Assembly: GCF_001625445.1 (NCBI RefSeq)
Contig: NZ_LWHG01000001.1
Span: 1 to 64,000, forward strand
Direction: 5' to 3'
Source of the DNA: Haladaptatus sp. R4
GTDB lineage: Archaea > Halobacteriota > Halobacteria > Halobacteriales > Haladaptataceae
DNA length: 64,000 bases
A model generated the notes under the pieces. That model searched no databases. It saw nothing but the letters and a program-made list of their open reading frames with translations, and had not been told where the DNA came from. Each line of letters starts with the position of its first letter. Positions within the stretch are counted from its first letter, which is position 1. Position numbers and translations under genes: made by a program. Of the stretch, positions 20,021-33,914 are shown piece after piece.

Positions 20021-20596
20021 ATGAAAGGCCAATATGCATTCTGTCCGAAAAGCGGCGCACCGCTCTCAGAAAACGTCCATTACGACGAGCTGGGTCGTTC
20101 CAGCCGACACGTCGTGAGTGACGACTCCCTCCAACGAATGGAGACCGAAGGTGAGATGACCAACGGTTCGCTCCGGTCGTCGAAGATAGCGCTGTTCAGC
20201 TACTTCAAACGCTGTTACGAGCGTCACTACGCGGCGAACTCGAAGCTATACTCACGAAGCACCATCGCCCTCGGTCGCCTCAAGCGAACCGCGAGCGGCA
20301 GGGACGCGTGGGATATGTACGTCTGGTACGCGCTGGCCGAACGGCTGGCGCGCCTCGGTTTCGACGCCGAGTGGATGAACGCACACATCGAACCACGCTG
20401 TCCGCAGTGTTCCGGGCGTCTGAAGTACGAGCAGTTGGCGTGTGACGAAATCATCGGCATCTGCGGGACGGACTGTACGGACGACCGGAGCGACCGCCTC
20501 GAAGAGATCCGCGAAACGGTCGCGGACCTGTACAGTCGGGCGTTCGCCGAGGAGTCGGGAGAACAGCTATCCGCGGACGACCTCGTCCGACTGTGA
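20021..20596 (+). CDS. Small protein with cysteine pairs, function unknown
   Basis: The 191-residue protein has a first Cys motif near the N-terminus (FCPKSGAPL), a basic helical middle (FSYFKRCYERHYAANSKLYS) and a second Cys cluster (RCPQCSGRLKY, then GICGTDC) resembling a zinc ribbon near residue 130-155. The C-terminal helix is acidic. I cannot name a family. It may be a haloarchaeal nucleic-acid-binding or zinc-ribbon protein. It precedes the DUF389 gene by 58 bases. Confidence 0.65.
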   Translation: MKGQYAFCPKSGAPLSENVHYDELGRSSRHVVSDDSLQRMETEGEMTNGSLRSSKIALFSYFKRCYERHYAANSKLYSRSTIALGRLKRTASGRDAWDMYVWYALAERLARLGFDAEWMNAHIEPRCPQCSGRLKYEQLACDEIIGICGTDCTDDRSDRLEEIRETVADLYSRAFAEESGEQLSADDLVRL

Positions 20597-20654: not shown

Positions 20655-21701
20655 ATGCCACAGGAAGACATGCGACTGGTCGATGTGATGGCGATGTCGG
20701 AGGAAGCACGGGAACGAACCGTCGAGTTCCTCGACCGGGAGGGACTCGACTACACCGTCTCCGACGACACCAACGGGTCCGTTAAATCGGCGTGCATCTC
20801 GCTGCCGGTCCCGGCACAGTACGTCGAGCCCCTTCGTGCCGAATTCGACGACCTCGGCGTCGGGGACGAGGTGTACACCGTCGTCACCAAACCCGAGGCC
20901 ATCGTGTCGTCCCGGTTCGACCACGTCGAAAAGCAGTACGAAGCGACCGGCACCTTCGGGCATCGGCGCGTCGCTCGAAGCGAACTGCACTCGAAGGCGG
21001 CGGACCTCATCCCCGACGACCGCATCCTCGTCATCATGACCGCCATCAGCGCCTTCGTCGCGACCGCTGGCGTCCTGCTCGATTCGGTGTCGGTGATGGT
21101 CGGATCGATGGTCATCGCGCCGCTGCTCGGACCGTCGATGGCGACGAGCGTGGCGACGGTCATCGACGACGAGGATCTGTTCGTGACGAGCGCGCGGATG
21201 CAACTCGTCGGCGGTCTCGTCTCCGTCGCCAGCGCGCTTTCGCTCGCCCTGTTCGTCAGATACACGAACATCGGATTGGGGACCATCGACATCACCGAGA
21301 GCTTGAAGCTCAGCATTCACAGTTCGCCGACCTTGCTCCTCGTCATCGTCGCGTTGTGCGCCGGTGTCGCGGGCGCGGTCTGTCTCTCGACCAGCGGGAT
21401 GACCTCGTTGGTCGGCGTGATGATCGCGGCGGCGGTGATGCCGCCCATCGGCGTCATGGGCGTCGGTCTCGCGTGGATGCATCCGACCGTCGTCCTCGGA
21501 GCGGCCGGAGTGGTGCTGGTGAACATCCTCGCCATCAACCTCGGGGCCATCGTCACGCTCTGGTACTTCGGCTACCATCCCGGCAACCTGTCCGACATCC
21601 GCCGGACCCGGAGCGTGATGCTGCGGCGCATCCTCGCGCTCATCGTCCTCATTGGCGGACTCGTCGCCTTCCTCACCAAAATCTCGACCATCCAGCTATG
21701 A
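20655..21701 (+). CDS. DUF389 family membrane protein (TIGR00341 type)
   Basis: The 348-residue protein has an N-terminal cytoplasmic domain of about 110 residues, then a membrane domain with about six helices. It includes the DUF389 signature region ILVIMTAISAFVATAGVLL and SVMVGSMVIAPLLGPSMA (about 125-165), and MIAAAVMPPIGVMGVGLAW later. DUF389 proteins are widespread and of unknown function. Its stop overlaps the next start (ATGA at 21698-21701), beginning a chain of coupled membrane genes. A start at the Met 15 bases downstream is also possible. Confidence 0.85.
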   Translation: MPQEDMRLVDVMAMSEEARERTVEFLDREGLDYTVSDDTNGSVKSACISLPVPAQYVEPLRAEFDDLGVGDEVYTVVTKPEAIVSSRFDHVEKQYEATGTFGHRRVARSELHSKAADLIPDDRILVIMTAISAFVATAGVLLDSVSVMVGSMVIAPLLGPSMATSVATVIDDEDLFVTSARMQLVGGLVSVASALSLALFVRYTNIGLGTIDITESLKLSIHSSPTLLLVIVALCAGVAGAVCLSTSGMTSLVGVMIAAAVMPPIGVMGVGLAWMHPTVVLGAAGVVLVNILAINLGAIVTLWYFGYHPGNLSDIRRTRSVMLRRILALIVLIGGLVAFLTKISTIQL

Positions 21702-22791
21702 CGAACGCAGGCAACAAATCACTGACAGAGCTACTCCGGTTTGCGAGCACGTTCCTCAAAATGGTGCTCAGGCTCCTCGCGGTCGGGGCGCGCGTGCTCG
21801 TCTCGACGCTTCGGAGCGAGAGGAATCGACGACGCGTTCGGCAGTGGTTGCTGCTGGAGGCCGACCGCTGGACCGTGGTGAACGCCCTCGTCGGCGGCGT
21901 ATTCGTGACGACGTTCGCCCTCGGGCTGACCGACGTCATCGGCGTCCGCGAGAGCGGGTTCGTGACGACGATGTTCAGCACCATCATCGCGGGGCTGTTC
22001 TCGTTCGTCCCGCTCGTCATCGCCATCAACCAAATCTCGGCGTCTCGCGTCCTCGGGTCGCCTGACAGGCTTCGCCGACGCATCGAGAGTGTCGAGCGTT
22101 TCCGCGGCGACTTGGAGGAGATGCTACCCGACGTCGCGGTGAGCACGACCGACCCGGCGGGCTTCCTGCGACTCGTCTACCGAGCGATAAACGAGCGTTC
22201 GACGGCGCTCGAAGCCGCGTGTTCGGGCTGTCCGGACGCGTCCTGTCGGCGGTCCGTCGCCGACTACTCGTCCGCGATTACGGCGCGCACCGAAACGGTG
22301 ACCGAACACCTCGACGACGACCTCCACCTCTGGAGCGTGCTGTTGCCGGTGATGAACGACACCTACTCGAAGCGGCACAACGAGGCGCGGCGGATACAGG
22401 AGGCTTACGCGGACGTGTTGCCGCCGGAGGCCGACGAGTTGCTGTCGGAACTGCAGGAGTTGCTGACCATCGTGGACGTGACCCGGCAGTACTTCAAATC
22501 GGTGTACTTGCAACAGGAACTCGCGCGACTGTCGCGCCAGATAGCGTACAGCGGTGGGGCGGCGTTCCTCATCTCGATGCTCGTCATCATGCTGTACGCG
22601 TCGGGATACCCGCCAGCGGTGGGCGGGATGGTGTTGCTCCTGCTCGTTACCGTTTCGCTGGCCATCGCGTTCAGCCCGTTCGCCATCCTGTTCGCGTACA
22701 TCCTGCGTATCGCGACGATCCTCAAGCGCACCTCCGCGCGGGCGCGTTCACGCCGAAAGGTGAGCGCCCGGCGCAGTTCTGGAAACGATGA
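21698..22791 (+). pseudogene. Four-TM membrane protein, frameshifted near the C-terminus as sequenced
   Basis: The protein (about 364 residues if repaired) has two N-terminal helices (NALVGGVFVTTFALGLTDVI, TMFSTIIAGLFSFVPLVIAI), a long soluble helical middle with a CSGCPDASC cluster, and two C-terminal helices. The open frame as written runs on to 23080 across the next gene, which is unlikely. Near 22740-22742 one missing G in a G run would switch to the frame ending GAFTPKGERPAQFWKR and a stop that forms an ATGA overlap with the propeller lipoprotein at 22788. That repair is convincing. Function is unknown. Confidence 0.75.
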
Positions 22792-23819
22792 CGGGGAATT
22801 CGACCGAACGGGCAGGGAGTTCGACCGGACGGACGGGGAATTCGATCGGGCGGACGAACGGGACGACCAGACGGAACTTCCTCCGTGCGGCGGGCGTGGG
22901 CGTCCTGGCACTCGGTGGCTGTACGGGGAACGACGGTGCGGACCGGTGGATCGCCGTCGAATCGCCCGTCGATGCGGAACTGTACGACGTGGTGATGACG
23001 CAGGGCGGTCCGTACGCCATCGGAGAGGGTGGCTCCGTAGTGGCTCGGCGGAACGGCGAGTGGACTGTCGTCGTCGATGACGGCCCTTCGGGTGCGCAAA
23101 ACAGCCTGCGTGCGGCGGCGGCGTCGGATAACGGACGACACCTGTGGTTTGCGGGCGACAGCGGCGTCGTCGGCGTCTACGACGTGACCAACAGAGCGAT
23201 GACGGACTATTCGGCACCGAAGGGACTGACGAGCACGTGGGAAGCCCTCTCGGTCGTCGGACTCGCCGACGCCGAGTCGGTGTACTTCGCCAACGGGTCG
23301 GGCGAGGTGGTGCGGGCGTCCCACACCGACAGCCAAATCCAGTGGCAGGAACCGGTGAAACCCGGCAGCGGGTCGAGTATCACCAGTCTCCAGTTCACCG
23401 GACGCGGCTTCGGTTTCGTGACGGACACGTCGAGCAACGTGTTCCAGACCGTCGACGGCGCGAAGTCGTGGCGACGGATCGGTATTCGTCGCGGGAGCGT
23501 GAACCTCCACGATATCGCTCCTCTCCCGTCGAACCAGATCAACGTCGTCGGCGACGGCGGGTCGGTGTTCGATTACAACGGGTTCACGTGGACGCGCTCG
23601 CACGCGGGGGAAAACGCCCTTCTCGCCATCGAGCGGGACCATCACCGCGGGGTCGTGACCGACGACTCCGGCGGCGTGTTCCGCCTGACGACACACGGTT
23701 GGAAACGGGAACGCTCGTCGACCGGCGAGACGCTTCACGGGGTGTGCCTCGGGACGGCGGAGCATCCATCGGTCGCCGTCGGCGAGAGCGGAACGATACT
23801 GGAACACCACAAAGCGTGA
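22788..23819 (+). CDS. Tat-lipoprotein beta-propeller (BNR/YCF48-like)
   Basis: The 343-residue protein has an unusual leader: three 7-residue repeats rich in Gly/Ser/Thr, then the Tat motif TTRRNFLRAAG and a lipobox LALGGC. The mature part is a seven-bladed propeller of the Ycf48/photosynthesis-assembly type, with blades of the form DGRHLWFAGDSGVVGVYD, GFVTDTSSNVFQTVDGAKSW and VAVGESGTILEH. It is closely similar to the broken propeller gene at 31198-32259 (shared WxxVESPxD, SAPKxxTSTWEA, VKPGSGSxI). It is coupled to the membrane protein before it. It would sit outside on the membrane and could help assemble a membrane complex; this is inference. Confidence 0.8.
   Translation: MTGNSTERAGSSTGRTGNSIGRTNGTTRRNFLRAAGVGVLALGGCTGNDGADRWIAVESPVDAELYDVVMTQGGPYAIGEGGSVVARRNGEWTVVVDDGPSGAQNSLRAAAASDNGRHLWFAGDSGVVGVYDVTNRAMTDYSAPKGLTSTWEALSVVGLADAESVYFANGSGEVVRASHTDSQIQWQEPVKPGSGSSITSLQFTGRGFGFVTDTSSNVFQTVDGAKSWRRIGIRRGSVNLHDIAPLPSNQINVVGDGGSVFDYNGFTWTRSHAGENALLAIERDHHRGVVTDDSGGVFRLTTHGWKRERSSTGETLHGVCLGTAEHPSVAVGESGTILEHHKA
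22794..22856 (+). repeat. Three 21-bp in-frame repeats in the leader of the propeller gene
   Basis: Three near-identical 21-base units beginning GGGGAATTCGACCG encode GNSTERA, GSSTGRT and GNSIGRT before the Tat motif. Such a repeat before a signal peptide is unusual and could be slippage-generated. Confidence 0.6.
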
Positions 23820-23880
23820 GGGGGATTCGTGTATCGAATTACGGACCCCCTCGGAACAGAAAATAATAATTTCTAGAAAT

Positions 23881-23895
23881 CACAGTTTAACTGTG
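23881..23895. promoter_or_regulatory. Inverted repeat upstream of the metal-permease operon
   Basis: CACAGTT-T-AACTGTG is a perfect 7-bp inverted repeat with a 1-base centre, in the AT-rich 218-base gap before the operon at 24038. A second partial inverted repeat (AGATTTTTATCT) follows near 23918-23929. Either could be an operator. Confidence 0.45.
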
Positions 23896-24037
23896 TCTAA
23901 TTTTTAATTATTTCCCATAGATTTTTATCTGTGGATGTCGTAGTAAGAGTGAGCGACCTGCCCGGACGACGCACCCTCTGCGGATGACCTCCCGGCACAA
24001 CAGCTACTTCTCCGTCTTTCGGTTCACGCACACCACA

Positions 24038-25501
24038 ATGACATTCATCAGTTCGTTACTGCACGGTATCGCGCTCGCCGCCGACATGGCGTGGGAAACG
24101 TGGTGGGCACTCGTCCTCGGGTTCACGCTCACGGGTGCCGTCGAGGAGTTCGTCACCGAACGGCAGATGACGCGCTACCTCGGCGACGACGGGTGGCGGG
24201 AGGCCGGTCTCGGGACGCTGTTCGGGATCGCCTCCTCTAGCTGTTCGTTCTCCGCCGCTGCGACCGCGAAAACCCTGTTCAAGAAAGGTGCATCGCCCGT
24301 CACGAGTCTCGGCGCGTTCCAGTTCGCGGCGACCGACCTCGTGGTCGAACTCGGCCTCGTGATGTGGATACTGCTCGGCTGGCAGTTCGTGGCCGCCGAC
24401 TTCGTGGGCGGCCTCGTCGCCGTCGCCGTTCTCGTCCTCATCTATCGGCGCGTCCCCGATAGCTGGTTCGAACGTGCACGCGAGCACGTCCGGAAACTCG
24501 ACGGCGTGACCTGTGCCGCCTGCGGTATGGACGCGCCGCCCGAGGACGATGATACGGTGACGCTCGAAACCGAAGGAAGAACCCGATATTTCTGCTGTTC
24601 GGGCTGTCAGTGCGTGTACGAGAACCGTGATCACGAGAATCACGACGAATCACCGTCGCTCACTTCCCGAAAAGCGTGGGAGCGCGCCGCGTCGAGCAGC
24701 GTGAAGGAGTGGGACATGCTCTGGGAGGACATCGCCATCGGATACGTCATCTCCGGGCTCATCGCGGCGCTCGTCCCGAAGACGTGGTGGGCCGCGCTGT
24801 TCGGCACGGGCGAAACCGGGTTTTTCCACGTCGCGTCGAATTCCGTCCTCGCAGTGATAATCGGCGTCGTCACGTTCGTCTGCTCGGTCGGGAACATCCC
24901 GTTCGCGCTTGTCCTCTGGCAGAAGGGAATCGCCTTCGGGAGCGTGCTGGCGTTCATCTTCGCCGACCTCATCATTCCGCCACTCGTCAACGCCTACCGA
25001 AACTACTACGGCGACCGCATCGCGGCGACGTTGTTCGCCGCGATGTTCGTCGCCAGCGTCGTCGCTGGTATCGTCGTCCACTACCTGTTTTCGGGGCTCG
25101 GACTGATCCCGCCCCAGGGCGTCGTGAGCGGCACCGCCCCGGACGACTACACGTTCGTCCTCAACCTCCTGGTCACCCCTGTGTTCCTCGCACAGGTGAC
25201 GGTCTCGTACGGCCCGGAGCGCGTCAAAACGCTCTCGACCGACCTGCCGGGAATCGCCGCTCGGAAATGGCGTGACCTCCGGCGTTCCGTGGGGCTCGTC
25301 ACCGATGCCTGTCGCATCGTCGCGTCGGCGACGACGACCGACCTAGGGAGCGAGGCGTGGCGGGCCGGAACCGCGCTACGGAAGGCGGGAAAACAGATCG
25401 TTCTCGCCGTCGGTCTCCTCGGCGAGGCGCTTCGCGGCTTCGCCGATTCGCTGTCACGTGCGGGAACCAAACTGCGGGAAGCCTACGAGGCACTTCGATG
25501 A
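24038..25501 (+). CDS. COG0701 (DUF318) permease with a CxxCGM...CCxGC metal-binding insert
   Basis: The 487-residue protein has two permease halves. Each carries the family loop: SSSCSFSAAATAKTLFKKGA (about 65-85) and FVCSVGNIPFALVLWQKGIA (about 280-300), with about eight to nine helices in total. Between the halves is a soluble insert, VTCAACGMDAPPEDD and YFCCSGCQCVYE (about 160-200). It resembles a YHS/TRASH metal-binding module and is followed by a His-rich stretch. COG0701 members export arsenicals or other species. The insert suggests heavy-metal handling or sensing. The chosen start MTFISSLLHG places the first helix at the N-terminus. It overlaps the next gene by ATGA. Confidence 0.85.
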   Translation: MTFISSLLHGIALAADMAWETWWALVLGFTLTGAVEEFVTERQMTRYLGDDGWREAGLGTLFGIASSSCSFSAAATAKTLFKKGASPVTSLGAFQFAATDLVVELGLVMWILLGWQFVAADFVGGLVAVAVLVLIYRRVPDSWFERAREHVRKLDGVTCAACGMDAPPEDDDTVTLETEGRTRYFCCSGCQCVYENRDHENHDESPSLTSRKAWERAASSSVKEWDMLWEDIAIGYVISGLIAALVPKTWWAALFGTGETGFFHVASNSVLAVIIGVVTFVCSVGNIPFALVLWQKGIAFGSVLAFIFADLIIPPLVNAYRNYYGDRIAATLFAAMFVASVVAGIVVHYLFSGLGLIPPQGVVSGTAPDDYTFVLNLLVTPVFLAQVTVSYGPERVKTLSTDLPGIAARKWRDLRRSVGLVTDACRIVASATTTDLGSEAWRAGTALRKAGKQIVLAVGLLGEALRGFADSLSRAGTKLREAYEALR

Positions 25502-26709
25502 TCCAGAAAAAATCCCTGTCCCCCCTCGCGTTCAGCGCGCTCGTCGCGGTGGCGCTCCGCTACGTCTCCGAATACCTGCGCCTGCTCGGTGCGCGGGCGT
25601 GGCTGGTTGGTCTGTTCGGGAGCGCCGCGCTGGCCCTCCCGTTCGTCGTCCCGACGATCCGGACGAACGTGCGCGACGTGGTCGATTCACGACCCTCGCT
25701 CGTCCTCGGATCGCTGAGCGTTGGCGGCGGCCTCCTGTGGTTATCGGCACCTTACTTCGGCGCGATTTCGCTCGGCCAACGGAATTTCGGACCGTGGGTG
25801 TGGGTGCTGGTCGGACTCCTCTTCCTGTGCTTGCCGCGACTGGAAACCGGCGGCCTCGTCGAATCGATCCACGCTCCCGGCGACCCGACGGAGCGTGGAT
25901 GGTCGGGTGCGAAACGCCGCGTCGTCCTCATCGGCGCGGTCGGCATCGCAGTCGGCCTGTTCGCGGGCGCGCCGGATTTCCTGCCGGGCTATCAGGTGCT
26001 CGTCGCGCTCGCGGCGACCCTCGGCGTGGTGGCGACGGTCGTGAGCGGCCTTCGGGACGAGAGCGGAGGTTCCGAAGGACGGTTCCGGACGTTCACCGAC
26101 CCGCCGTCGATCTCGGACGTTCGATCCGCCCTGCACGACGTTCCGCCGCGATTGCGCTCCGTGCTGATCGGCGACGCCCTGGTGCAGTTCGCGGTCGGCA
26201 TGGTGGCGTACTTCCTCGTCGTCGCCGTCGTCCACCACCATCGACTGCACGCGGACTTGCTGGTCGTCGAGTTCCCTCCCGAAGCGACCTTCGGACTCCT
26301 GCTCGCCGTCGAAACGGCCGTCGCGCTGTTCGGTACTCCCGTCACGACGTGGCTCGCGGAGACGACGAGCGCGAAAACTGTCGTCGCGGGCGGACTGCTT
26401 TCGGTCTCGTTGGTGCCGCTCTCCGTCATCAACGTGCCCAGATTCGGCGTGGCGTTCGTCTCGTTCGCGTTCCTCGGCGGCTATCTGGCGTGCCGTCCCA
26501 CCCGAGAACGACTAGTGGGAACGGTCGCCCGCACGCACGACCTGTTCGACACCTATCGCGTCGCACGGCGGGGGGCCGTCGTCCCCGCGCCGCTTCTCGG
26601 CGGGATGCTCTACGGCTTCAATCCCGAATTCGCGTTCGGGTTCGCCTCCTGCGTCGGCCTGCTCGGCTGTTGGGAGTTCCTGCACTCGATTCGGGGGGCT
26701 GGCGCGTGA
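25498..26709 (+). CDS. Polytopic membrane protein, MFS-like, function unknown
   Basis: The 403-residue protein has 10-12 hydrophobic helices in two halves, with a cytoplasmic stretch in the middle (about 180-215: FTDPPSISDVRSALHDVPPRLRS), as in major-facilitator proteins. Motif A is not clear, so transport is only suggested by layout. It is coupled to the COG0701 permease (ATGA) and its stop directly abuts the start of the oxidase subunit I gene. The three genes almost certainly form one operon. It may move a metal or a small solute needed by the oxidase. Confidence 0.7.
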   Translation: MIQKKSLSPLAFSALVAVALRYVSEYLRLLGARAWLVGLFGSAALALPFVVPTIRTNVRDVVDSRPSLVLGSLSVGGGLLWLSAPYFGAISLGQRNFGPWVWVLVGLLFLCLPRLETGGLVESIHAPGDPTERGWSGAKRRVVLIGAVGIAVGLFAGAPDFLPGYQVLVALAATLGVVATVVSGLRDESGGSEGRFRTFTDPPSISDVRSALHDVPPRLRSVLIGDALVQFAVGMVAYFLVVAVVHHHRLHADLLVVEFPPEATFGLLLAVETAVALFGTPVTTWLAETTSAKTVVAGGLLSVSLVPLSVINVPRFGVAFVSFAFLGGYLACRPTRERLVGTVARTHDLFDTYRVARRGAVVPAPLLGGMLYGFNPEFAFGFASCVGLLGCWEFLHSIRGAGA

Positions 26710-28254
26710 ATGACGGACGAACGACCAGGGGGAATTCGACGGTGGGTAACGACCGTCAACCATCGGGACATCGGCGTCCTCTACCTCATCTTCGGCACGT
26801 GCTCGGGACTGCTCGGCGGCGTGGACGCGATGATGATCCGCACCGACGCGCTCTCGCCGCGCCCGGGCGTCTGGAAGACCGGCACGTACGACGCCCTGTT
26901 CACGACCCACGGGTTGACGATGCTGTTGCTGTTCGCCGGGCCGGTAATCTTCGGCGTGGCGAACTACTTCGTCCCGATCCTCGTCGGCGCGGACGACATG
27001 GCGTTTCCCCGCATCAACGCCGTGGGCTTCTGGGTGCTGCCGCCCGCCGCCCTGCTGATGCGGGCGGGAATCGTCACCGACTTGCTCGGGTTTCCCGACA
27101 CCGGCGGTCCGCTCGCGACGGGATGGACGCTGTACCCGCCGCTCTCGACGGCCATGCCGAACCCGGACATCGACCTCGTCCTCCTCGGCCTCCACCTGTC
27201 GGGGCTGGGAACCATCATGGCCGGAATCAACGTCGTCGTCACCATCTTCGTCTCGCGGGAGGTGTCGTGGGCCGAGTTGGACATCTTCTCGTGGACGATG
27301 CTGGTGACGGGCGGTCTCGTGATCTTCGCGTTTCCCGTGCTCGGGAGCGCACTCGTCATGCTCCTGTGCGACCGCAACCTCGGCACGACGTTCTTCGCGA
27401 CGCCCGGCGGCGGGCCGATGCTGTGGCAGAACCTGTTCTGGTTCTTCGGCCATCCCGAGGTGTACATCCTCGTCCTGCCGCCGATGGGACTGCTGAGCTA
27501 CATTCTGCCGCGGTTCGCGGGTCGGCGGCTGTTCGGCTTCCGCTCGGTGGTGTACTCGACGCTGGCCATCGGCGTCCTGTCGTTCGGCGTCTGGGCCCAC
27601 CACATGTTCGCCACCGGAATGGACCCGCGACTACAGGCCAGCTTCATGGCTGTGACGCTCGCCATCGCCGTCCCGAGCGCCGTCAAGACGTTCAACTGGA
27701 TGGCGACCCTGTGGAACGGAACCCTCCGCCTCGACGCGCCCTTGCTGTTCTGTCTCGGCGCGATAGCCAACTTCGTCGTCGGGGGCGTGACCGGCGTCTT
27801 CCTCGCCGCGATTCCCGTCGATCGGGTGCTCCACGGCACCTACTACGTCGTCGGCCACTTCCACTTCATGCTCGTCGGCACGAGCGTCTTCGCGCTGTTC
27901 GCCGCCTGCTACTACTGGTTCCCGCTGCTGACCGGGCGGCGCTACGACCCGTACCTCGCCAAACTCCATTTCTGGCTCTCGGCGGTGGGCGTCGCGGTCA
28001 CGTTCTCCGTCCTCCTCGTGCTCGGCATGGACGGTTTGCCGCGGCGAATGGCGACCTACCCTCCGCGATTCGCGCCGCTCCAGATGGCCGCGACCGTCTG
28101 CGCCTACGTCCTCGGGGTCGGCCAACTCGTCTGGCTCTGGAACATGGTTCGCTCCCTGCTGTGGGGGGAACCGGCGGGAGACGACCCGTGGAACTGCCGC
28201 GAACTGAACTTCCCCTCGCCCGAGTGGGAGTGGTTCGCGGAGCACCGCCGGTAA
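26710..28254 (+). CDS. Haem-copper oxidase subunit I (cytochrome c/quinol oxidase, A-type)
   Basis: The 514-residue protein has twelve helices and all key residues. These are the low-spin haem ligand His in TTHGLTMLLLF; the CuB His and cross-linked Tyr with the proton-path Glu in FFGHPEVYIL; CuB His pair AHHMF; and haem ligands in VVGHFHFML. The motif GADDMAFPRINAVGFW is typical of A1-type enzymes with a D-channel. It should reduce oxygen to water and pump protons. No subunit II or III gene (no CuA motif) lies nearby; the partner subunits must be elsewhere, or this works with a different partner. It begins at the base after the previous stop. Confidence 0.93.
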   Translation: MTDERPGGIRRWVTTVNHRDIGVLYLIFGTCSGLLGGVDAMMIRTDALSPRPGVWKTGTYDALFTTHGLTMLLLFAGPVIFGVANYFVPILVGADDMAFPRINAVGFWVLPPAALLMRAGIVTDLLGFPDTGGPLATGWTLYPPLSTAMPNPDIDLVLLGLHLSGLGTIMAGINVVVTIFVSREVSWAELDIFSWTMLVTGGLVIFAFPVLGSALVMLLCDRNLGTTFFATPGGGPMLWQNLFWFFGHPEVYILVLPPMGLLSYILPRFAGRRLFGFRSVVYSTLAIGVLSFGVWAHHMFATGMDPRLQASFMAVTLAIAVPSAVKTFNWMATLWNGTLRLDAPLLFCLGAIANFVVGGVTGVFLAAIPVDRVLHGTYYVVGHFHFMLVGTSVFALFAACYYWFPLLTGRRYDPYLAKLHFWLSAVGVAVTFSVLLVLGMDGLPRRMATYPPRFAPLQMAATVCAYVLGVGQLVWLWNMVRSLLWGEPAGDDPWNCRELNFPSPEWEWFAEHRR

Positions 28255-28285
28255 CCGAACGCTCGATCAGACCGCCAACTCACCC

Positions 28286-28756
28286 ATGACCGTCTACGAA
28301 ACCTCGATTCCCGGCGTCGGCCGGAAGTACGAACTCGACTGTGGAACGAACCGCCTCGTCGTCCTCCTGCGCCACGACGGCGAGCGCGAACTGTACCGGC
28401 GAATCGACGACGACCACGAGAAACTGCTTGACCTGCCCGGCGGGGACGCCCGAAAGCTGGCGACGATCCTCGCTGGGGGTTACTTCCAACCCGTCGAACC
28501 CGAGAGCGTGGACCTGCCGCTCGGCGACGCCATCATCGAGTGGGTGGACGTGACGGCGGCGTCGCCCATCGCCGACTCGACGCTCGCCGAGGCGGGTATC
28601 TGGGGCGAGACGGGCGCGACCGTCATCGCCGTCCAGCGCGGCAGCGACACCCATCCGTCCCCGGACCCGGCGTTCGAACTCCGTGCGGGTGACGCCCTCG
28701 TCGCTATCGGTACCCGCGACGAACTGGCGACGCTCGCGGGACTCGCCGAACGATGA
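28286..28756 (+). CDS. KhtT-like regulatory subunit with TrkA-C (RCK_C) domain
   Basis: The 156-residue protein has an N-terminal domain of about 75 residues (ETSIPGVGRKYELDCG, VVLLRHDGERELYRR) and a C-terminal RCK_C domain (STLAEAGIWGETGATVIAVQRG, FELRAGDALVAIGTRDEL). This is the size and order of Bacillus KhtT, the nucleotide-sensing subunit of the K+/H+ antiporter KhtU. It overlaps the antiporter gene by ATGA, supporting a two-component antiporter. It is cytoplasmic. Confidence 0.85.
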   Translation: MTVYETSIPGVGRKYELDCGTNRLVVLLRHDGERELYRRIDDDHEKLLDLPGGDARKLATILAGGYFQPVEPESVDLPLGDAIIEWVDVTAASPIADSTLAEAGIWGETGATVIAVQRGSDTHPSPDPAFELRAGDALVAIGTRDELATLAGLAER

Positions 28757-29940
28757 CGCCGTTCGCGGAAATCGGCATCGTGCTCGCCGCCGTGGCGGTC
28801 GCGGGGGCGGTCGCGGTCCGGACGGGCCAATCGGTCATCCCGGCCTACATCCTTGCGGGCGTCGTCGTGGGGCCGAGCATCCCGACCCACGTCGCGGGAA
28901 TCGGGATCGCAGTCGTATCGAAGACGGAGTTCATCGGCGTGTTCGCCGACCTCGGCGTCGTCCTCCTGCTCTTCTTCCTCGGCCTGCACGTCGATGTTGA
29001 GCGACTCGTAGACGACTGGAATCGCGTCGTCGGAACGGGCGTCGTGGACTTCGCGTTCAACTACGCCGCCGGTCTCGCGCTCGGATTCCTGTTCGGGTTC
29101 TCGCTCGCCCAGACGCTGGTAGTCGCTGGCGTCGTCTACATCTCGTCCAGCGCCATCGTCACCGAGTCGATGCTGAACAACGGGTGGATCGCGGGCCGCG
29201 AGAGCGCCCCGATTCTCGGGGCGCTCGTCTTCGAGGACGTCGTCATCGCCGTCTACATGGCGCTGCTCTCGTCGCTCGTCCTCGGCGGCGGGTCGCCCGT
29301 TGCGGCCGTCCTCACGCTCGGAAAGGGATTCGGATTCCTCGGGGTCGTCGCCGTGACCGGTTGGGTCGGCACCGAACCGCTCGAACGCCTGTTCGCGTCC
29401 CGGTCGGACGAACTGTTCGCGCTTCGTCTGCTCGGCGTCGCGGCCGTCGTCGCGGCGGCCGCCGCGACGTTCGGCCTCAGCAAGGGTATCGCGGCGTTCT
29501 TCGTCGGCGCGGCGCTCGGCCAGACGGATCACGAAGCGCGTATCGAACGAACCCTCGAACCCGCACGCGACCTCTTTTCCGCCGTTTTCTTCTTCGCCAT
29601 CGGACTCGTCACGAAGACCTCGGTCCTGGCCGACGTCCTCCCGCTGTTGCTCGCCGCGCTGGTCGTCACCATCGCCAGCAAGCTCCTGAGCGGGTACGTG
29701 AGTGGCCATATCTACGACCTCGACCGCCGCCGCTCGCTCCGCGTCGGCGTCGGTCTCGTCTCCCGCGGCGAGTTCTCGCTCGTCCTCGCCACGCTCGCGG
29801 GGAGCGCGAGCGTGGGCATGGGGTTCGTTCCCGAGTTCGCCGTCGGCTACGTGCTGGCGACGAGCGTCCTCGGGACGTTGTTCGTGCGCCACGAACCGAG
29901 TCTGGTTCGATTGCTGTCGCGGTTCGGCCACGTCCGGTAA
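28753..29940 (+). CDS. Cation:proton antiporter of the CPA2 family (KhtU/KefB-like)
   Basis: The 395-residue protein has about 12-13 helices. CPA2 features include GQSVIPAYILAGVVVGPSIP near the N-terminus, FFLGLHVDVERL, the ion-binding region VVYISSSAIVTESML, LGALVFEDVVIAVYMALLSSL with the Glu-Asp pair, and SRGEFSLVLATLAGSA near the C-terminus. There is no fused TrkA-N domain, in keeping with the separate KhtT-like partner upstream. It would exchange K+ (or Na+) for H+ to hold cytoplasmic pH and ion balance. The final codons lie inside a tRNA-like fold (29926-29977). Confidence 0.88.
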   Translation: MTPFAEIGIVLAAVAVAGAVAVRTGQSVIPAYILAGVVVGPSIPTHVAGIGIAVVSKTEFIGVFADLGVVLLLFFLGLHVDVERLVDDWNRVVGTGVVDFAFNYAAGLALGFLFGFSLAQTLVVAGVVYISSSAIVTESMLNNGWIAGRESAPILGALVFEDVVIAVYMALLSSLVLGGGSPVAAVLTLGKGFGFLGVVAVTGWVGTEPLERLFASRSDELFALRLLGVAAVVAAAAATFGLSKGIAAFFVGAALGQTDHEARIERTLEPARDLFSAVFFFAIGLVTKTSVLADVLPLLLAALVVTIASKLLSGYVSGHIYDLDRRRSLRVGVGLVSRGEFSLVLATLAGSASVGMGFVPEFAVGYVLATSVLGTLFVRHEPSLVRLLSRFGHVR

Positions 29941-29977
29941 GCAGGCCGGTCGCGGGTTCGACCCCCGCGCGTGGCCC
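29926..29977 (+). other. tRNA-like fold without anticodon arm, overlapping the antiporter stop codon
   Basis: Bases 29926-29932 (GGCCACG) pair perfectly with 29970-29976 (CGTGGCC). Between them is a tRNA T-arm look-alike: CGCGGG, loop TTCGACC, CCCGCG (29951-29969). The remaining 18 bases hold a small CCGG/CCGG hairpin instead of D and anticodon arms. It looks like a tRNA 3' half with a rebuilt acceptor stem. It could be a tRNA remnant, an integration scar, or a processing/termination signal. Confidence 0.4.
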
Positions 29978-30063
29978 TTGGCGGCCCTGCCGCCAGTGAA
30001 AATCCTATGGAGGCTAGCGGAACTCACTCCGGTGTACAGATTTGCCCCCAGCCCCTCGCGGGT

Positions 30064-30359
30064 ATGACGGGGTTCAAACGGGACCTCTTGTTGACGGTCG
30101 CCGCCTGTCGGGCACCAATCCCTACGGGAAGATCATCAAACAGGAACTCGAAGACCACTACGGAGAACCGATCAACCACGGCCGTCTCTACCAGAATCTG
30201 GAGGAACTGGTCGAGGCGGACCTCGTGACGAAACTCCCGCTCGATGGGCGAACGAACGTCTATCGGCTCACCGACGGTGCCGAATCGCAGCTACGCGCCC
30301 ACCGTCGGTGGGAGGACGAATGTTTGCTCGCCGTGACGGAGACCTCCGCCGAATCATGA
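30064..30359 (+). pseudogene. PadR-family transcriptional regulator, frameshifted as sequenced
   Basis: MTGFKRDLLLTVA is followed, one base over, by LSGTNPYGKIIKQELEDHYG, NHGRLYQNLEELVEADLVTK and a wing (GRTNVYRLT). This is the classical PadR winged helix. The break is near 30103-30105 and is a one-base loss; adding a G gives the expected VAGLSG join. Repaired length is about 98 residues, typical of small haloarchaeal PadR proteins. Its stop overlaps the next start (ATGA). It may control the small membrane protein and neighbouring genes. Confidence 0.8.
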
Positions 30360-30670
30360 GCAAAGCCGTCGCACTCTCCGTCCTGCAGTTGCTCGCGCTC
30401 GCGATCCCGCCGATCGCAGTGCTCATCAAGATGCTCCGACAGTCGGAGAACCTGTCGTGGCGCTACCGAAAGTGGAGTTTCGGACTCGCGCTGTCGAGCA
30501 TTACGCTGTTCCTCGCGTCCGGCGTCGCCGTGCTGGCGTACCTCTCGATGAGTTTCCCGTTGTCGCCGCTGCTGAAAATCGCGTTGATGTTCTCCCTGCT
30601 CGGCCTCGTGCCGTTCGCGCTGTTCACCGGCGTGTTGTACAAGGAGCACAAGCTGACCTTCGGTCCGTGA
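30356..30670 (+). CDS. Small three-helix membrane protein coupled to a PadR regulator
   Basis: The 104-residue protein begins MSKAVALSVLQLLALAIPP and has three hydrophobic segments (about 3-22, 42-62 and 70-92) with a short basic loop (MLRQSENLSWRYRKWS). No family is recognised. ATGA overlap with the PadR gene indicates co-expression. PadR regulators often sit next to a membrane protein they control, so this may be its target. Confidence 0.65.
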   Translation: MSKAVALSVLQLLALAIPPIAVLIKMLRQSENLSWRYRKWSFGLALSSITLFLASGVAVLAYLSMSFPLSPLLKIALMFSLLGLVPFALFTGVLYKEHKLTFGP

Positions 30671-30719
30671 CTCGGTCGCCGACCGAACCGCGATCAAACC
30701 GACTACCGACACGAAACCC

Positions 30720-30914
30720 ATGTCAAACACAGACCATACCACTGCTGATGCGGAATCGACTTCCAGAACTGACTCCCAAACCGCAACCGACTTCGGCGAA
30801 ACCCTGAGCGCCTACCACGATTCGATTCAGGACGTGTTCTCCGAAGCACACGAGAAACTGGACGACCTGCTCTCGGAAATCGAGGACGAGTTGGCGGGGG
30901 ACGACGATGCGTAG
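30720..30914 (+). CDS. Small acidic protein, function unknown
   Basis: The 64-residue protein is Ser/Thr/Asp-rich at the N-terminus and ends in an amphipathic acidic helix (YHDSIQDVFSEAHEKLDDLL). It overlaps the next small gene by 8 bases, which supports real translation. It may be half of a small two-protein complex. Confidence 0.5.
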   Translation: MSNTDHTTADAESTSRTDSQTATDFGETLSAYHDSIQDVFSEAHEKLDDLLSEIEDELAGDDDA

Positions 30915-31140
30915 CGAACGCGATGGTGAACGGATCTATCGAGACGACCGCGACGGAGGGACGCTGGTTCGAAAGCGAACCGGTCCCCGATGCGGCGTCT
31001 GGGTCGGCCACTACGCCAGCGACCCGACGAGCGACGCGCTGGAGATTCGGAACGTGTGGGCGGACGAACGCCGAACCCGAGTCACGATTCCGGTGGACGC
31101 GGTGACGGACGTAATCGCCGCGCTCGAATCACGAATCTGA
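30907..31140 (+). CDS. Small protein of unknown function
   Basis: The 77-residue protein has a basic first half (GGTLVRKRTGPRCGVWVGHY) and a second half with DALEIRNVWADERRTRVTIP and a terminal helix (VDAVTDVIAALES). It has the codon bias of its neighbours and overlaps the preceding acidic protein. No family is recognised. It precedes the broken propeller gene by 57 bases. Confidence 0.5.
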   Translation: MRSERDGERIYRDDRDGGTLVRKRTGPRCGVWVGHYASDPTSDALEIRNVWADERRTRVTIPVDAVTDVIAALESRI

Positions 31141-31197
31141 TCGAGCGGAGACGCGACACACGAATCGGCGACGAACGACGCGATTTTGGAGATCAGA

Positions 31198-32259
31198 ATG
31201 GAACTCATCGACACGATACGAACCCTGTTCAGCGACCTGCAACGTGATTCGAACGACAGTTACTTCACCGTCTCGGCCGCCACGCCGAAATCATCGAGCG
31301 GTTCGAAGCCGACGAACGCTTCGAACACCTCGAAGACGTCGTCCGACGGGACGTCGAAGGCCGAGTGGCGCTCGGTGGAGTCACCGACGGACAAGACGCT
31401 CATCGGCGTCACGACGACGACGGAAGGACCGTTCGCCGTCGGAACCGGCGGGAACGTCCTCACGAAGCGCGACGGCGAGTGGCGCTTTGCGATTCGGGAC
31501 GGTCCGGCCACGCGGGAGAACACCCTCACCTGCGTCGACGTCACCGACGACGGCACGCGAATCTGGTTCGCGGGGTCGTCGGGCGCGCTCGGCTGTTACG
31601 ACGCGACCGAGGGCAAGAAGTACGATTACAGCGCACCGAAGGAGAAGACGAGCACGTGGGAGGCCATCGCGGTGTCCGGAAACGCGGGGAGCGAACTGAT
31701 CCGCGTGGCGAACGGCTCCGGCGAGGTGCTCCCGGTGACGGTCGGCGAGCACGGCTGTCGTCGTGGGGCGAGGTGGTCAAGCCGGGCAGCGGCTCGACGA
31801 TTCCCGCGCTCGATTTCGGGAGCGAGGGTGCCTACGCCATCGACACGAGCGGCAACGTCTTCGAGGAAGGCGGTGACAGAACCGAGAGCGACGGAGACGG
31901 GAACAACGACGCTGACAACGGTTGGACGGACATCGGCGTGAAGAACGCGCAGGTGAACTTCTTCGATGTGCTCGCCGGTGACGGGAAACTGCTCGTCACG
32001 GGCAGCGGCGGCCGCGTCTATCGCTACGACCGGCCCTGTGAGAACTGGACGCCCGTCGATGCTGGCAAGGGCGCACTCCACGGCATCGCCGAAGACGAAT
32101 CGACGCTCGTCGTCGTCGGCGCGAGCGGTCGCGTCTACGAGCGGTTGCCCGGGGAAGGCTGGACGCAGTCGCCACGCGGTCGAGGACGATTTACGGGACG
32201 TGACGCTCGGCGACACGGACATCGCAGTGGGCGCTGGCGGGGCCATCATCGAACGATGA
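31198..32259 (+). pseudogene. Cytoplasmic-type beta-propeller protein, paralogue of 22788-23819, several frameshifts
   Basis: The start MELIDTIRTLFSDLQRDSND is followed, after a one-base loss near 31266, by a charged helix (HAEIIERFEADERFEHLEDV) in another frame. Near 31360 the frame returns and gives WRSVESPTDKTLIGV and further blades. A loss near 31753 shifts to SSWGEVVKPGSGSTIPALDF. A gain near 32171 shifts to HAVEDDLRDVTLGDTDIAV and the stop. The four shifts sum to zero, and the repaired protein would have about 353 residues. It lacks the Tat leader of its paralogue. The final stop overlaps the next start by ATGA. Four breaks could mean a real pseudogene or a poorly read stretch. Confidence 0.7.
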
Positions 32260-32897
32260 GCGGGTCGCATACCTACGAACGAACGACGCGCCGGACGCGG
32301 ACCCGCGAACTCTACTGGTACGTGCTCGCAGCGTACCTGCTCGCGGTTGGATCGGGTATCGCCGGATTCCTCGCCCTCGTCGCCTTGACGAACAAACTGA
32401 CCATCATCAGCGTCGGTGCCATCGCCATCCTCGTCGTCCTCTCCCTTCTTAGTCTGGCGACGTTTCCCGCGCTGTATCGGGACGCCGCCTACTTGCGAAC
32501 CACGACCGAGTGGAAGCCGACGTGGTGGTTGTACGTCGTCGGCGGTGGCGTGACGCCGATCATCGGTTACTTCACCGGCGGCGCGCTGTTCGGCCCGCGA
32601 ATCAATCTCCTTCTCTCGGTCCTCTCGTGGGTGGGGAGCGTCTCCTCGATGTGTGTCGTCTACCTGTATCGTCGGCACGCCGCCGTCGGTGTGCGTGATC
32701 GATTGCGAGCGGACCTGACAAAATCCGGGCTTCGAGTGCTTTCAGACACCAAAAATCGGCAACACGATCGAAACGAGGTACCATACAATGTCGAAAGCAG
32801 ACCGATTCAGCACGGACGTACCGACTTCCACACCACACCAACACCGTTGGACCCCCGGCAGCGGAAACACGTCGTCGCGGCTCGCTACCTGCCGTAA
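32256..32897 (+). CDS. Four-TM membrane protein coupled to the propeller gene
   Basis: MSGSHTYERTTRRTRTRELY leads into four hydrophobic helices (YVLAAYLLAVGSGIAGFLAL, IISVGAIAILVVLSLLSLAT, WWLYVVGGGVTPIIGYFTGG, LLLSVLSWVGSVSSMCVVYL). The first 150 residues look real. The last 60 or so are basic and low in acidic residues, and they overlap the following gene by 110 bases. The true stop may therefore be earlier, with a frame error near 32700-32760. As read it has 213 residues. It is coupled by ATGA to the beta-propeller gene, mirroring the membrane/propeller pair at 21698-23819. Confidence 0.6.
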   Translation: MSGSHTYERTTRRTRTRELYWYVLAAYLLAVGSGIAGFLALVALTNKLTIISVGAIAILVVLSLLSLATFPALYRDAAYLRTTTEWKPTWWLYVVGGGVTPIIGYFTGGALFGPRINLLLSVLSWVGSVSSMCVVYLYRRHAAVGVRDRLRADLTKSGLRVLSDTKNRQHDRNEVPYNVESRPIQHGRTDFHTTPTPLDPRQRKHVVAARYLP

Positions 32898-33081
32898 CGA
32901 AACCTGTGACAACGAACACGTCGACCGGGAGTTCGCCCGTATCCTCGGCGACGAGGACGGGAACGTCTACGCCTGCCCCGAGTGCACCTCGTGGACGGCC
33001 CTGCGACACGGCGCGGCCGCGAAACCGGACTTCGAGGCCCGCGTTCGCCACGAGTGGCCGGACCACGGAGTCAACAGATGA
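32788..33081 (+). CDS. Small protein with a two-CxxxC zinc-finger-like motif
   Basis: The 97-residue protein has Cys pairs ATCRNETCDNEH and YACPECTSW about 25 residues apart, compatible with one zinc ion, and a C-terminal helix with several His and Arg. Similar small zinc-finger proteins are common in haloarchaea and lack a known job. It overlaps the DUF2182 gene by ATGA (33078-33081), so it is part of that operon. Confidence 0.65.
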   Translation: MSKADRFSTDVPTSTPHQHRWTPGSGNTSSRLATCRNETCDNEHVDREFARILGDEDGNVYACPECTSWTALRHGAAAKPDFEARVRHEWPDHGVNR

Positions 33082-33914
33082 GTATCGACACGAAATCAAT
33101 CCCCCTCACCCGACTCGACCGGTCGCTCGACCGGACGACTGCCGTCGTCGTCTCGATGGTCGTCCTCGACGTGCTCTGGTGGACGCTGATCTACACCGGT
33201 CGCGTCCCCATGCCGGGGATGATGTGGCTGATGAAATCCGGGATTCCGATGGCCGCCCCCGGGGCGATGGAGGCGGCCGTCTCCCACGCCGGGACGCTCG
33301 GCGCGGTTCTCGGCTACGTCGTCATGTGGGGCGTGATGATGTGGGCGATGATGTTCCCGCCGATGACGCGGTTCACGCGCGATTACGCCGACGCACTCGA
33401 CGGCCGGGTCGGAACGGTCACGGCGACGGTCGCCGCGTTCCTCACCGCCTACAACGTCGTCTGGGCGCTGTCGGCCACCATCCCGCTCGCCGTTCAGGCG
33501 ATCATTCCGGGCGGTATCTACGGCTTTACCGAGACTCACACCACGTTCGTCATCGGGAGCGTGCTCGTTCTGACCGGTTGCTATCAGCAGACCGCGTTCA
33601 AACGCTCGCGGCTACGAACCTGTTGTTCCCGCGTCGCTCCGCACGAGGCGAACGTCGCTCGCGGCTTTCGAACGGGACTGAAACACGGCGTGAGTTGCAT
33701 CCTCGTCTGTTTGGGACCGTTCTTTCTCCTGATGCCGTTTTTCGGGGAGATGAACTTCTTCTGGATGGTCGCGCTGACGACGGTCGTGACCGTCGAGCGC
33801 CTGCCAGCGTCGTGGGGCAGGGAGTTCTCGACGGCGACGGGAATCGTCGCGCTCGTCGCCGGACTCCTCGTCCTGTTCCTCCGGCCGTCGCTCCCCATCG
33901 TCTTCTCGATGTGA
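33078..33914 (+). CDS. DUF2182 integral membrane protein (predicted metal-binding)
   Basis: The 278-residue protein has about seven helices and the DUF2182 hallmark of methionine-rich helices: MPGMMWLM and YVVMWGVMMWAMMFPPMTRF (about 84-105). A CysCys pair (RTCCSRV), a second conserved segment GLKHGVSCILVCLGPFFLLM, and FFWMVALTTVVTVERL follow. The Met and Cys residues are thought to bind metal, possibly copper. The family's function is not established. It closes the co-directional island that includes the metal permease and oxidase subunit I. Confidence 0.85.
   Translation: MSIDTKSIPLTRLDRSLDRTTAVVVSMVVLDVLWWTLIYTGRVPMPGMMWLMKSGIPMAAPGAMEAAVSHAGTLGAVLGYVVMWGVMMWAMMFPPMTRFTRDYADALDGRVGTVTATVAAFLTAYNVVWALSATIPLAVQAIIPGGIYGFTETHTTFVIGSVLVLTGCYQQTAFKRSRLRTCCSRVAPHEANVARGFRTGLKHGVSCILVCLGPFFLLMPFFGEMNFFWMVALTTVVTVERLPASWGREFSTATGIVALVAGLLVLFLRPSLPIVFSM

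Follow-up and report, generated by a model that had tools for sequence, protein, structure and literature searches.

An operon-like gene island around a distinct haem-copper oxidase subunit I in Haladaptatus sp. R4 and other Halobacteria, with putative copper-handling proteins

Several described systems resemble parts of a gene island found in the haloarchaeon Haladaptatus sp. R4. It has been reported that PpoB2 (COG5486) of Marinomonas mediterranea takes part in delivering copper to a tyrosinase whose gene shares its operon (PMC2855505); the DUF2182 protein of the island belongs to the same Pfam family and is likewise encoded beside a copper enzyme, but its target would be a membrane oxidase rather than a tyrosinase. 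CcoA, an MFS copper importer for the cbb3 oxidase, is defined by an MxxxM/HxxxM motif pair (PMC5829832), and the island MFS protein, which is also linked to an oxidase gene, differs in being without this pair. The orphan CcoN4 cluster of P. aeruginosa has a catalytic subunit encoded away from the genes of its partner subunits and a regulator of its own, as the island does, but CcoN4 is of the cbb3 type and lacks the conserved copper, transport and propeller set (PMC10790758). The photosystem II assembly factor Ycf48/HCF136 is a secreted propeller of the same general kind, similarly linked to a cofactor-rich membrane enzyme; however, the island propellers stay below the family cut-offs and the enzyme is a different one. 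The island permease scores above the cut-off of ArsP_1, and the SO_0444 Cu/Zn efflux family is its nearest NCBIfam model, although it remains far under the cut-off of the latter. Finally, in comparison with the A-type subunit I CtaD/CoxA, island Cox1 is about 60% identical to other haloarchaeal Cox1 and keeps the haem, CuB, Tyr and K-channel residues, but it forms a separate branch below the family cut-off, has mostly lost one Mg-site residue and, in about half of the sequences (the one from R4 not among them), the D-channel, and usually has no subunit II in its cluster. No description of this cluster was found in the open-access literature on DUF2182, DUF389, Ycf48 and orphan Cox1 in haloarchaea.

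The window, that is, the whole stretch of 64,000 nucleotides analysed from contig NZ_LWHG01000001.1, carries 16 genes between 20655 and 33914, all on the + strand, as are all genes given below, and a 17th at 20021 joins the set. This additional gene (20021..20596) encodes a zinc-ribbon-like cytosolic protein of 191 aa, in which five Cys are kept in at least 33/34 sequences, and because a homologue stands at the same place in 44/48 related islands, the left edge is set at 20021. The initial annotation had delimited the block as 20655–33914, which holds except that the set starts one gene earlier; it had also described at least 15 co-directional genes, many of which overlap by ATGA or abut, in agreement with the seven stop/start overlaps of 4 nt and the single abutting pair counted here. 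All the parts that it had named were found, namely DUF389, a permease with a C-x2-C-x-M...CC-x2-C insert, Cox1, KhtT/KhtU-like proteins, PadR, two propellers and DUF2182; its "10-12 TM partner" is also present, with a fold identified here as MFS, and the gene at 21698..22791, which encodes a membrane family found in every island, had gone unnamed. The widest spacing within the island core is 219 bp, just before the permease gene. The DUF389/TIGR00341 membrane protein (20655..21701; PF04087, 8e-31; TIGR00341 above cut-off) follows the zinc-ribbon gene, while the right-hand part contains an acidic ORF of 64 aa (30720..30914), which is an open frame only, with no homologue in the loci searched; a 77-aa ORF (30907..31140) with homologues in loci L069 and L106; a membrane protein of the tm12/tm32256 family (32256..32897), with an uncertain C-terminus and homologues in L106, L069 and elsewhere; and a DUF7563 zinc-ribbon protein (32788..33081; PF24444, 4e-11).

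A search of 391 Halobacteria by Cox1, propeller 1 and the new membrane protein (g3TM), together with a scan of named genomes and plasmid records, placed the island in 48 distinct haloarchaeal genomes after duplicate loci had been merged, 39 of them among the 391 sampled (about a tenth). These genomes belong to at least six families, and some island copies are plasmid-borne; in Haladaptatus halobius, for instance, a rearranged island lies on a plasmid with almost the whole core still together. In locus L075, the island is cut by a contig end. g3TM, propeller 1, the permease, the MFS protein and Cox1 are present in 48/48 islands, and since the loci were picked by Cox1 and propeller, or in other cases by g3TM, the counts for these three are partly selected; the permease and MFS genes were not used in picking. 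DUF389 is present in 47, the zinc-ribbon protein in 44, PadR in 42 and the 3-TM protein in 40 of the 48, while the minority genes are HMA (16), KhtU (8), KhtT (7) and subunit II (4). The common order is zinc-ribbon, DUF389, g3TM, propeller 1, permease, MFS, Cox1, PadR, propeller 2, 3-TM, DUF2182, with the MFS gene overlapping Cox1 by 4 nt (gap −4) in 27/47 islands; in Natrialbaceae, the island is split into two halves of divergent orientation, and PadR is followed by propeller 2 and DUF2182. The linkage goes beyond chance, given that 48 genomes retain the core set. Conservation of the gene neighbourhood across Halobacteria, the check suggested in the initial annotation, was thus found in two arrangements, and its idea that the genes are made and used together gains support from the conserved order, the conserved ATGA overlaps and the phyletic co-occurrence. 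A role as a defence island was considered and dropped: PADLOC models for anti-phage defence gave no match among 10 island proteins.

We give about even chances to the explanation that the island acts as one operon-like unit for building and supplying an alternative, dedicated haem-copper oxygen reductase. Cox1 would be the catalytic core of this enzyme, with two haems and CuB, all of whose ligands are kept. We infer copper as the metal, and with it the direction of transport; copper would be handled by the DUF2182 chaperone, the permease with its Cys-rich insert and, where present, HMA, and these proteins may load CuB or hold copper near the oxidase in range. The CuB-loading role is suggested because these genomes are without Cox11. 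On the outer face, the secreted propeller lipoproteins would serve as assembly scaffolds in the manner of Ycf48, and PadR would control expression. The electron donor would be the housekeeping subunit II/halocyanin pool or, for four Natrialbaceae, their linked subunit II; in several lineages, proton pumping may have been relaxed or lost. Several points count against this reading. The island itself shows no path for electrons, because subunit II is absent in 44/48 islands; the permease is under the Cu/Zn cut-off, the MFS protein is without the CcoA motifs, the propellers are under the Ycf48 cut-offs, and two window genes are frameshifted. In addition, DUF389 and g3TM have, to our knowledge, no known role.

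The Cox1 gene (26710..28254) encodes a haem-copper oxidase subunit I of 514 aa (PF00115, 8e-142), assigned to an island-specific branch by tree and residues. In a quick tree, a branch with SH-aLRT 98.5 separates the 45 island Cox1 from 13 haloarchaeal Cox1 from outside the island, a limited sample of the latter, and the window protein reaches 604.9 bits with the CtaD_CoxA model TIGR02891, below the cut-off of 670.75. With residues numbered as in the bovine enzyme and assigned by motif, the ligands of haem a, haem a3 and CuB and the cross-linked Tyr (H61, H378, H376, H240, H290, H291, Y244) are kept in 45/45, window included; the K-channel Lys319 is also kept in all 45, and Arg438/439 are invariant. 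Meanwhile, the Mg/Mn-site Asp369 on the subunit II side is Gly in the window and in 39/45 island Cox1, whereas it is Asp in 12/13 others. E242 is replaced in 20, N80 in 24 and N98 in 21 of the 45, while 13/13 others keep all three, and the four D-channel residues (N80, D91, N98, E242) are kept together in only 21/45, with D/E allowed at 91. Erosion of the D-channel occurred more than once, since parsimony needs four changes for N80 and two for E242; in the window protein N, D, N and E are all present and only Asp369 is lost. Judged from these alignments, the island oxidase differs from the standard one in that it usually has no adjoining subunit II and belongs to a family with eroded Mg-site and D-channel residues, and the family offers a natural series that loses the D-channel and the Mg site while the active site is kept.

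Among the copper-related genes, the DUF2182 gene (33078..33914; PF09948, 3e-34) encodes a protein scoring 118.9 bits with PF09948, above the gathering cut-off of 28.7; this family is now named PpoB2 copper chaperone in Pfam, and a Met-rich MMxAMM stretch and the Cys residues are invariant or nearly so in the island proteins. In 145 sampled genomes, DUF2182 was found in 13/13 with the island and 7/132 others (Fisher p 6.7e-14, a test that ignores shared ancestry, with island genomes spanning at least six families), and its presence in 26/26 further island genomes brings the total to 39/39. By coordinates, its gene is at most a few kb from the island in about 28 of these 39 genomes and at another genomic location in the others, and it is a hidden core gene of the island. 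The permease (24038..25501; PF03773, 1e-67) reaches 228.6 bits with ArsP_1 PF03773 (cut-off 32.3) and 75.1 bits with the SO_0444 Cu/Zn efflux model NF033936 (cut-off 300). Its insert resembles TRASH/ATPase-cat_bd metal-binding domains, with Cys kept in 39–41 of 41 sequences, and both PF12156 (9e-5) and TRASH remain below cut-off. HMA proteins occur in 16/48 island genomes, and no relic of one was seen in the 219-bp gap before the permease gene. No Cox11 was found in the 18 island genomes searched, by a search that was positive in 1/14 control genomes, and SCO1 gave a match in 10/18, which leaves the supply of CuB in these archaea otherwise unaccounted for. By homology, copper handling by DUF2182, the permease and HMA is probable. 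With a PpoB2-type chaperone joined to Cox1 in a conserved operon, CuB loading in archaea that lack Cox11 comes within reach of deletion genetics in strains that can be cultured. As a separate observation, the genome of the window encodes an ArsP-type permease that shares 49% identity with that of the island, about 7 kb from the gene of a different, more distant haem-copper oxidase with an 810-aa open frame (L092, C33:161000-179000).

These genes might instead confer resistance to copper or soft metals, with Cox1 as a non-respiratory electron sink that uses O2 to oxidise Cu(I), or some other reduced metal, at the outer face, the permease as an exporter, and DUF2182 and the propellers holding metal. 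The relation of the metal-binding permease to SO_0444 Cu/Zn efflux, the presence of DUF2182 and HMA, the loss of pump residues in several lineages, and a patchy, sometimes plasmid-borne distribution of the kind often seen for resistance genes all fit; however, there is no P1B ATPase among the core genes, the K-channel and all cofactor sites are kept as in true oxidases, and we know of no precedent for Cox1 as a metal-oxidising electron sink. This explanation is considered unlikely.

The supply of electrons brings in subunit II. No CuA-bearing subunit II is encoded in the island of the window or in 44/48 islands. COX2 (PF00116) is present elsewhere in the genome in 22/22 tested and adjoins the island in only one of these 22; after further loci had been added, linked COX2 with a CuA motif was found in four Natrialbaceae islands of the 48. 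The idea that linked subunit II has lost its Mg-site Glu in correlation was dropped, since this was seen in L101 and L112 but not in L113 and L165. An orphan Cox1 with COX2 elsewhere would also be expected if island Cox1 were an exchangeable isoform that, under a specific stress (low O2, cyanide or sulfide), takes the place of the housekeeping subunit I to give a hybrid complex, its neighbours only tuning production, for which CcoN4 of P. aeruginosa is a precedent (PMC10790758). However, Asp369, which is lost in most island Cox1 and kept in nearly all others, lies at the subunit I/II interface, and some ten other core genes travel along, which is more than an isoform swap needs; a hybrid complex appears slightly less probable than metal resistance. 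Within the preferred explanation of a dedicated oxygen reductase, a bolder version, in which the island defines a haloarchaeal oxidase class without the usual CuA subunit II contact and without D-channel pumping, its own CuB loading by DUF2182, the metal-insert permease and the propellers replacing the Cox11 route, is offered tentatively and may well prove too strong.

It is not unusual in itself for haloarchaea to carry orphan Cox1 genes. The genome of the window contains at least five PF00115 genes and only two PF00116 matches (contigs C1, C21, C32, C33 and C34). In Halorussus loci L125, L132 and L142, non-island orphan Cox1 genes have a second, more distant class of g3TM (about 35% identical) no more than a few kb away, with KhtT/KhtU also nearby in L142. 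Halorussus plasmid loci L148 and L149 carry orphan Cox1 with no COX2 nearby, followed in L149 by a DUF6789 protein, and in Halobaculum plasmids the DUF6789 annotation also occurs under Cox1 matches.

The remaining island proteins are less readily matched to described families. The MFS transporter-like protein (25498..26709) has an AF2 model (pLDDT 74.5) that matches MFS structures, with a Foldseek E of 1e-5 to NorA and others; among the listed island MFS sequences, some of them partial, HxxxM was found in none and MxxxM is absent from the window and all but three others, and the assignment as CcoA was rejected. g3TM (21698..22791), a new membrane family of about 360 aa, matched no Pfam or NCBIfam family, and in a genome scan its matches were in Halobacteria only. 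Its AF2 model (pLDDT 80) gave no significant match in structure comparison; weak helical bundles, TTYH and Csp3 among them, were left unused, the best Z of 11.9 falling in the quoted chance range. Both island propellers are weakly Ycf48-like. Propeller 1 (22788..23819; PF14870, 3e-4) is a TAT lipoprotein with RR and the lipobox Cys in 37/41 sequences, and scores 20.5 against a cut-off of 27 with PF14870 and 19.1 against 326 with NF010237; the lack of any invariant His, Met, or Cys beyond the lipobox argues for a scaffold, not an electron carrier. Propeller 2 (31198..32259) has a propeller counterpart at the same place in most islands. Outside the island, four island-type propeller units stand in tandem in a 1336-aa open frame (L094, G082:C34:30000-43000). 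The PadR regulator (30042..30359; PF03551, 4e-10) overlaps the gene for a small membrane protein of 104 aa (30356..30670; about 3 TM by eye), and a Cys that is near invariant in island PadR proteins (32/34; C94 in the window) may possibly be a metal- or redox-sensing residue. For DUF389, DUF2182 and g3TM, a membrane family that had no name before, the island provides context and suggests a candidate role.

The window also has a KhtT-like TrkA_C protein (28286..28756; PF02080, 1e-13) and a KhtU-like cation/proton antiporter of CPA type (28753..29940; PF00999, 1e-47) with putative K+ selectivity. That this pair and the oxidase jointly set ion balance in a module for pH or K+ stress is suggested by their overlapping genes directly after Cox1, but is very improbable given their presence in only 7/48 (KhtT) and 8/48 (KhtU) islands, mainly in relatives of the window; because of these counts the pair is regarded as accessory. 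On the same grounds, the pH and K+/H+ exchange part of the common role proposed in the initial annotation is not supported, whereas supply or protection of a membrane oxidase during metal stress remains the best-supported direction, given the permease insert, the PpoB2-type chaperone and the HMA genes, with the correction that the oxidase, usually having no adjoining subunit II, is not a standard one. A small membrane protein, c29, lies between Cox1 and KhtT in the close relatives L106 (16438-16806), L070 and L071 and is missing from the window, where just 31 bp separate the two genes.

The window copy has three apparent frameshifts over two genes: a 1-nt deletion near 22737 in g3TM relative to Haladaptatus salinisoli, and two frame changes in propeller 2, near 31800 and 32235. 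In H. salinisoli (locus L106), g3TM is intact and propeller 2 is one open frame; in the draft genome of the window, either assembly indels or real decay may be the cause. These frameshifts would suit an account in which the genes are mere passengers of a variable region, chance neighbours decaying in this genome, but conservation of the same core over several families in two arrangements, with DUF2182 co-occurring even unlinked, refutes it in general and leaves only local decay in this strain, making it the least probable of the explanations weighed. A further Cox1 gene of this genome, on contig C32, is likewise split over frames.
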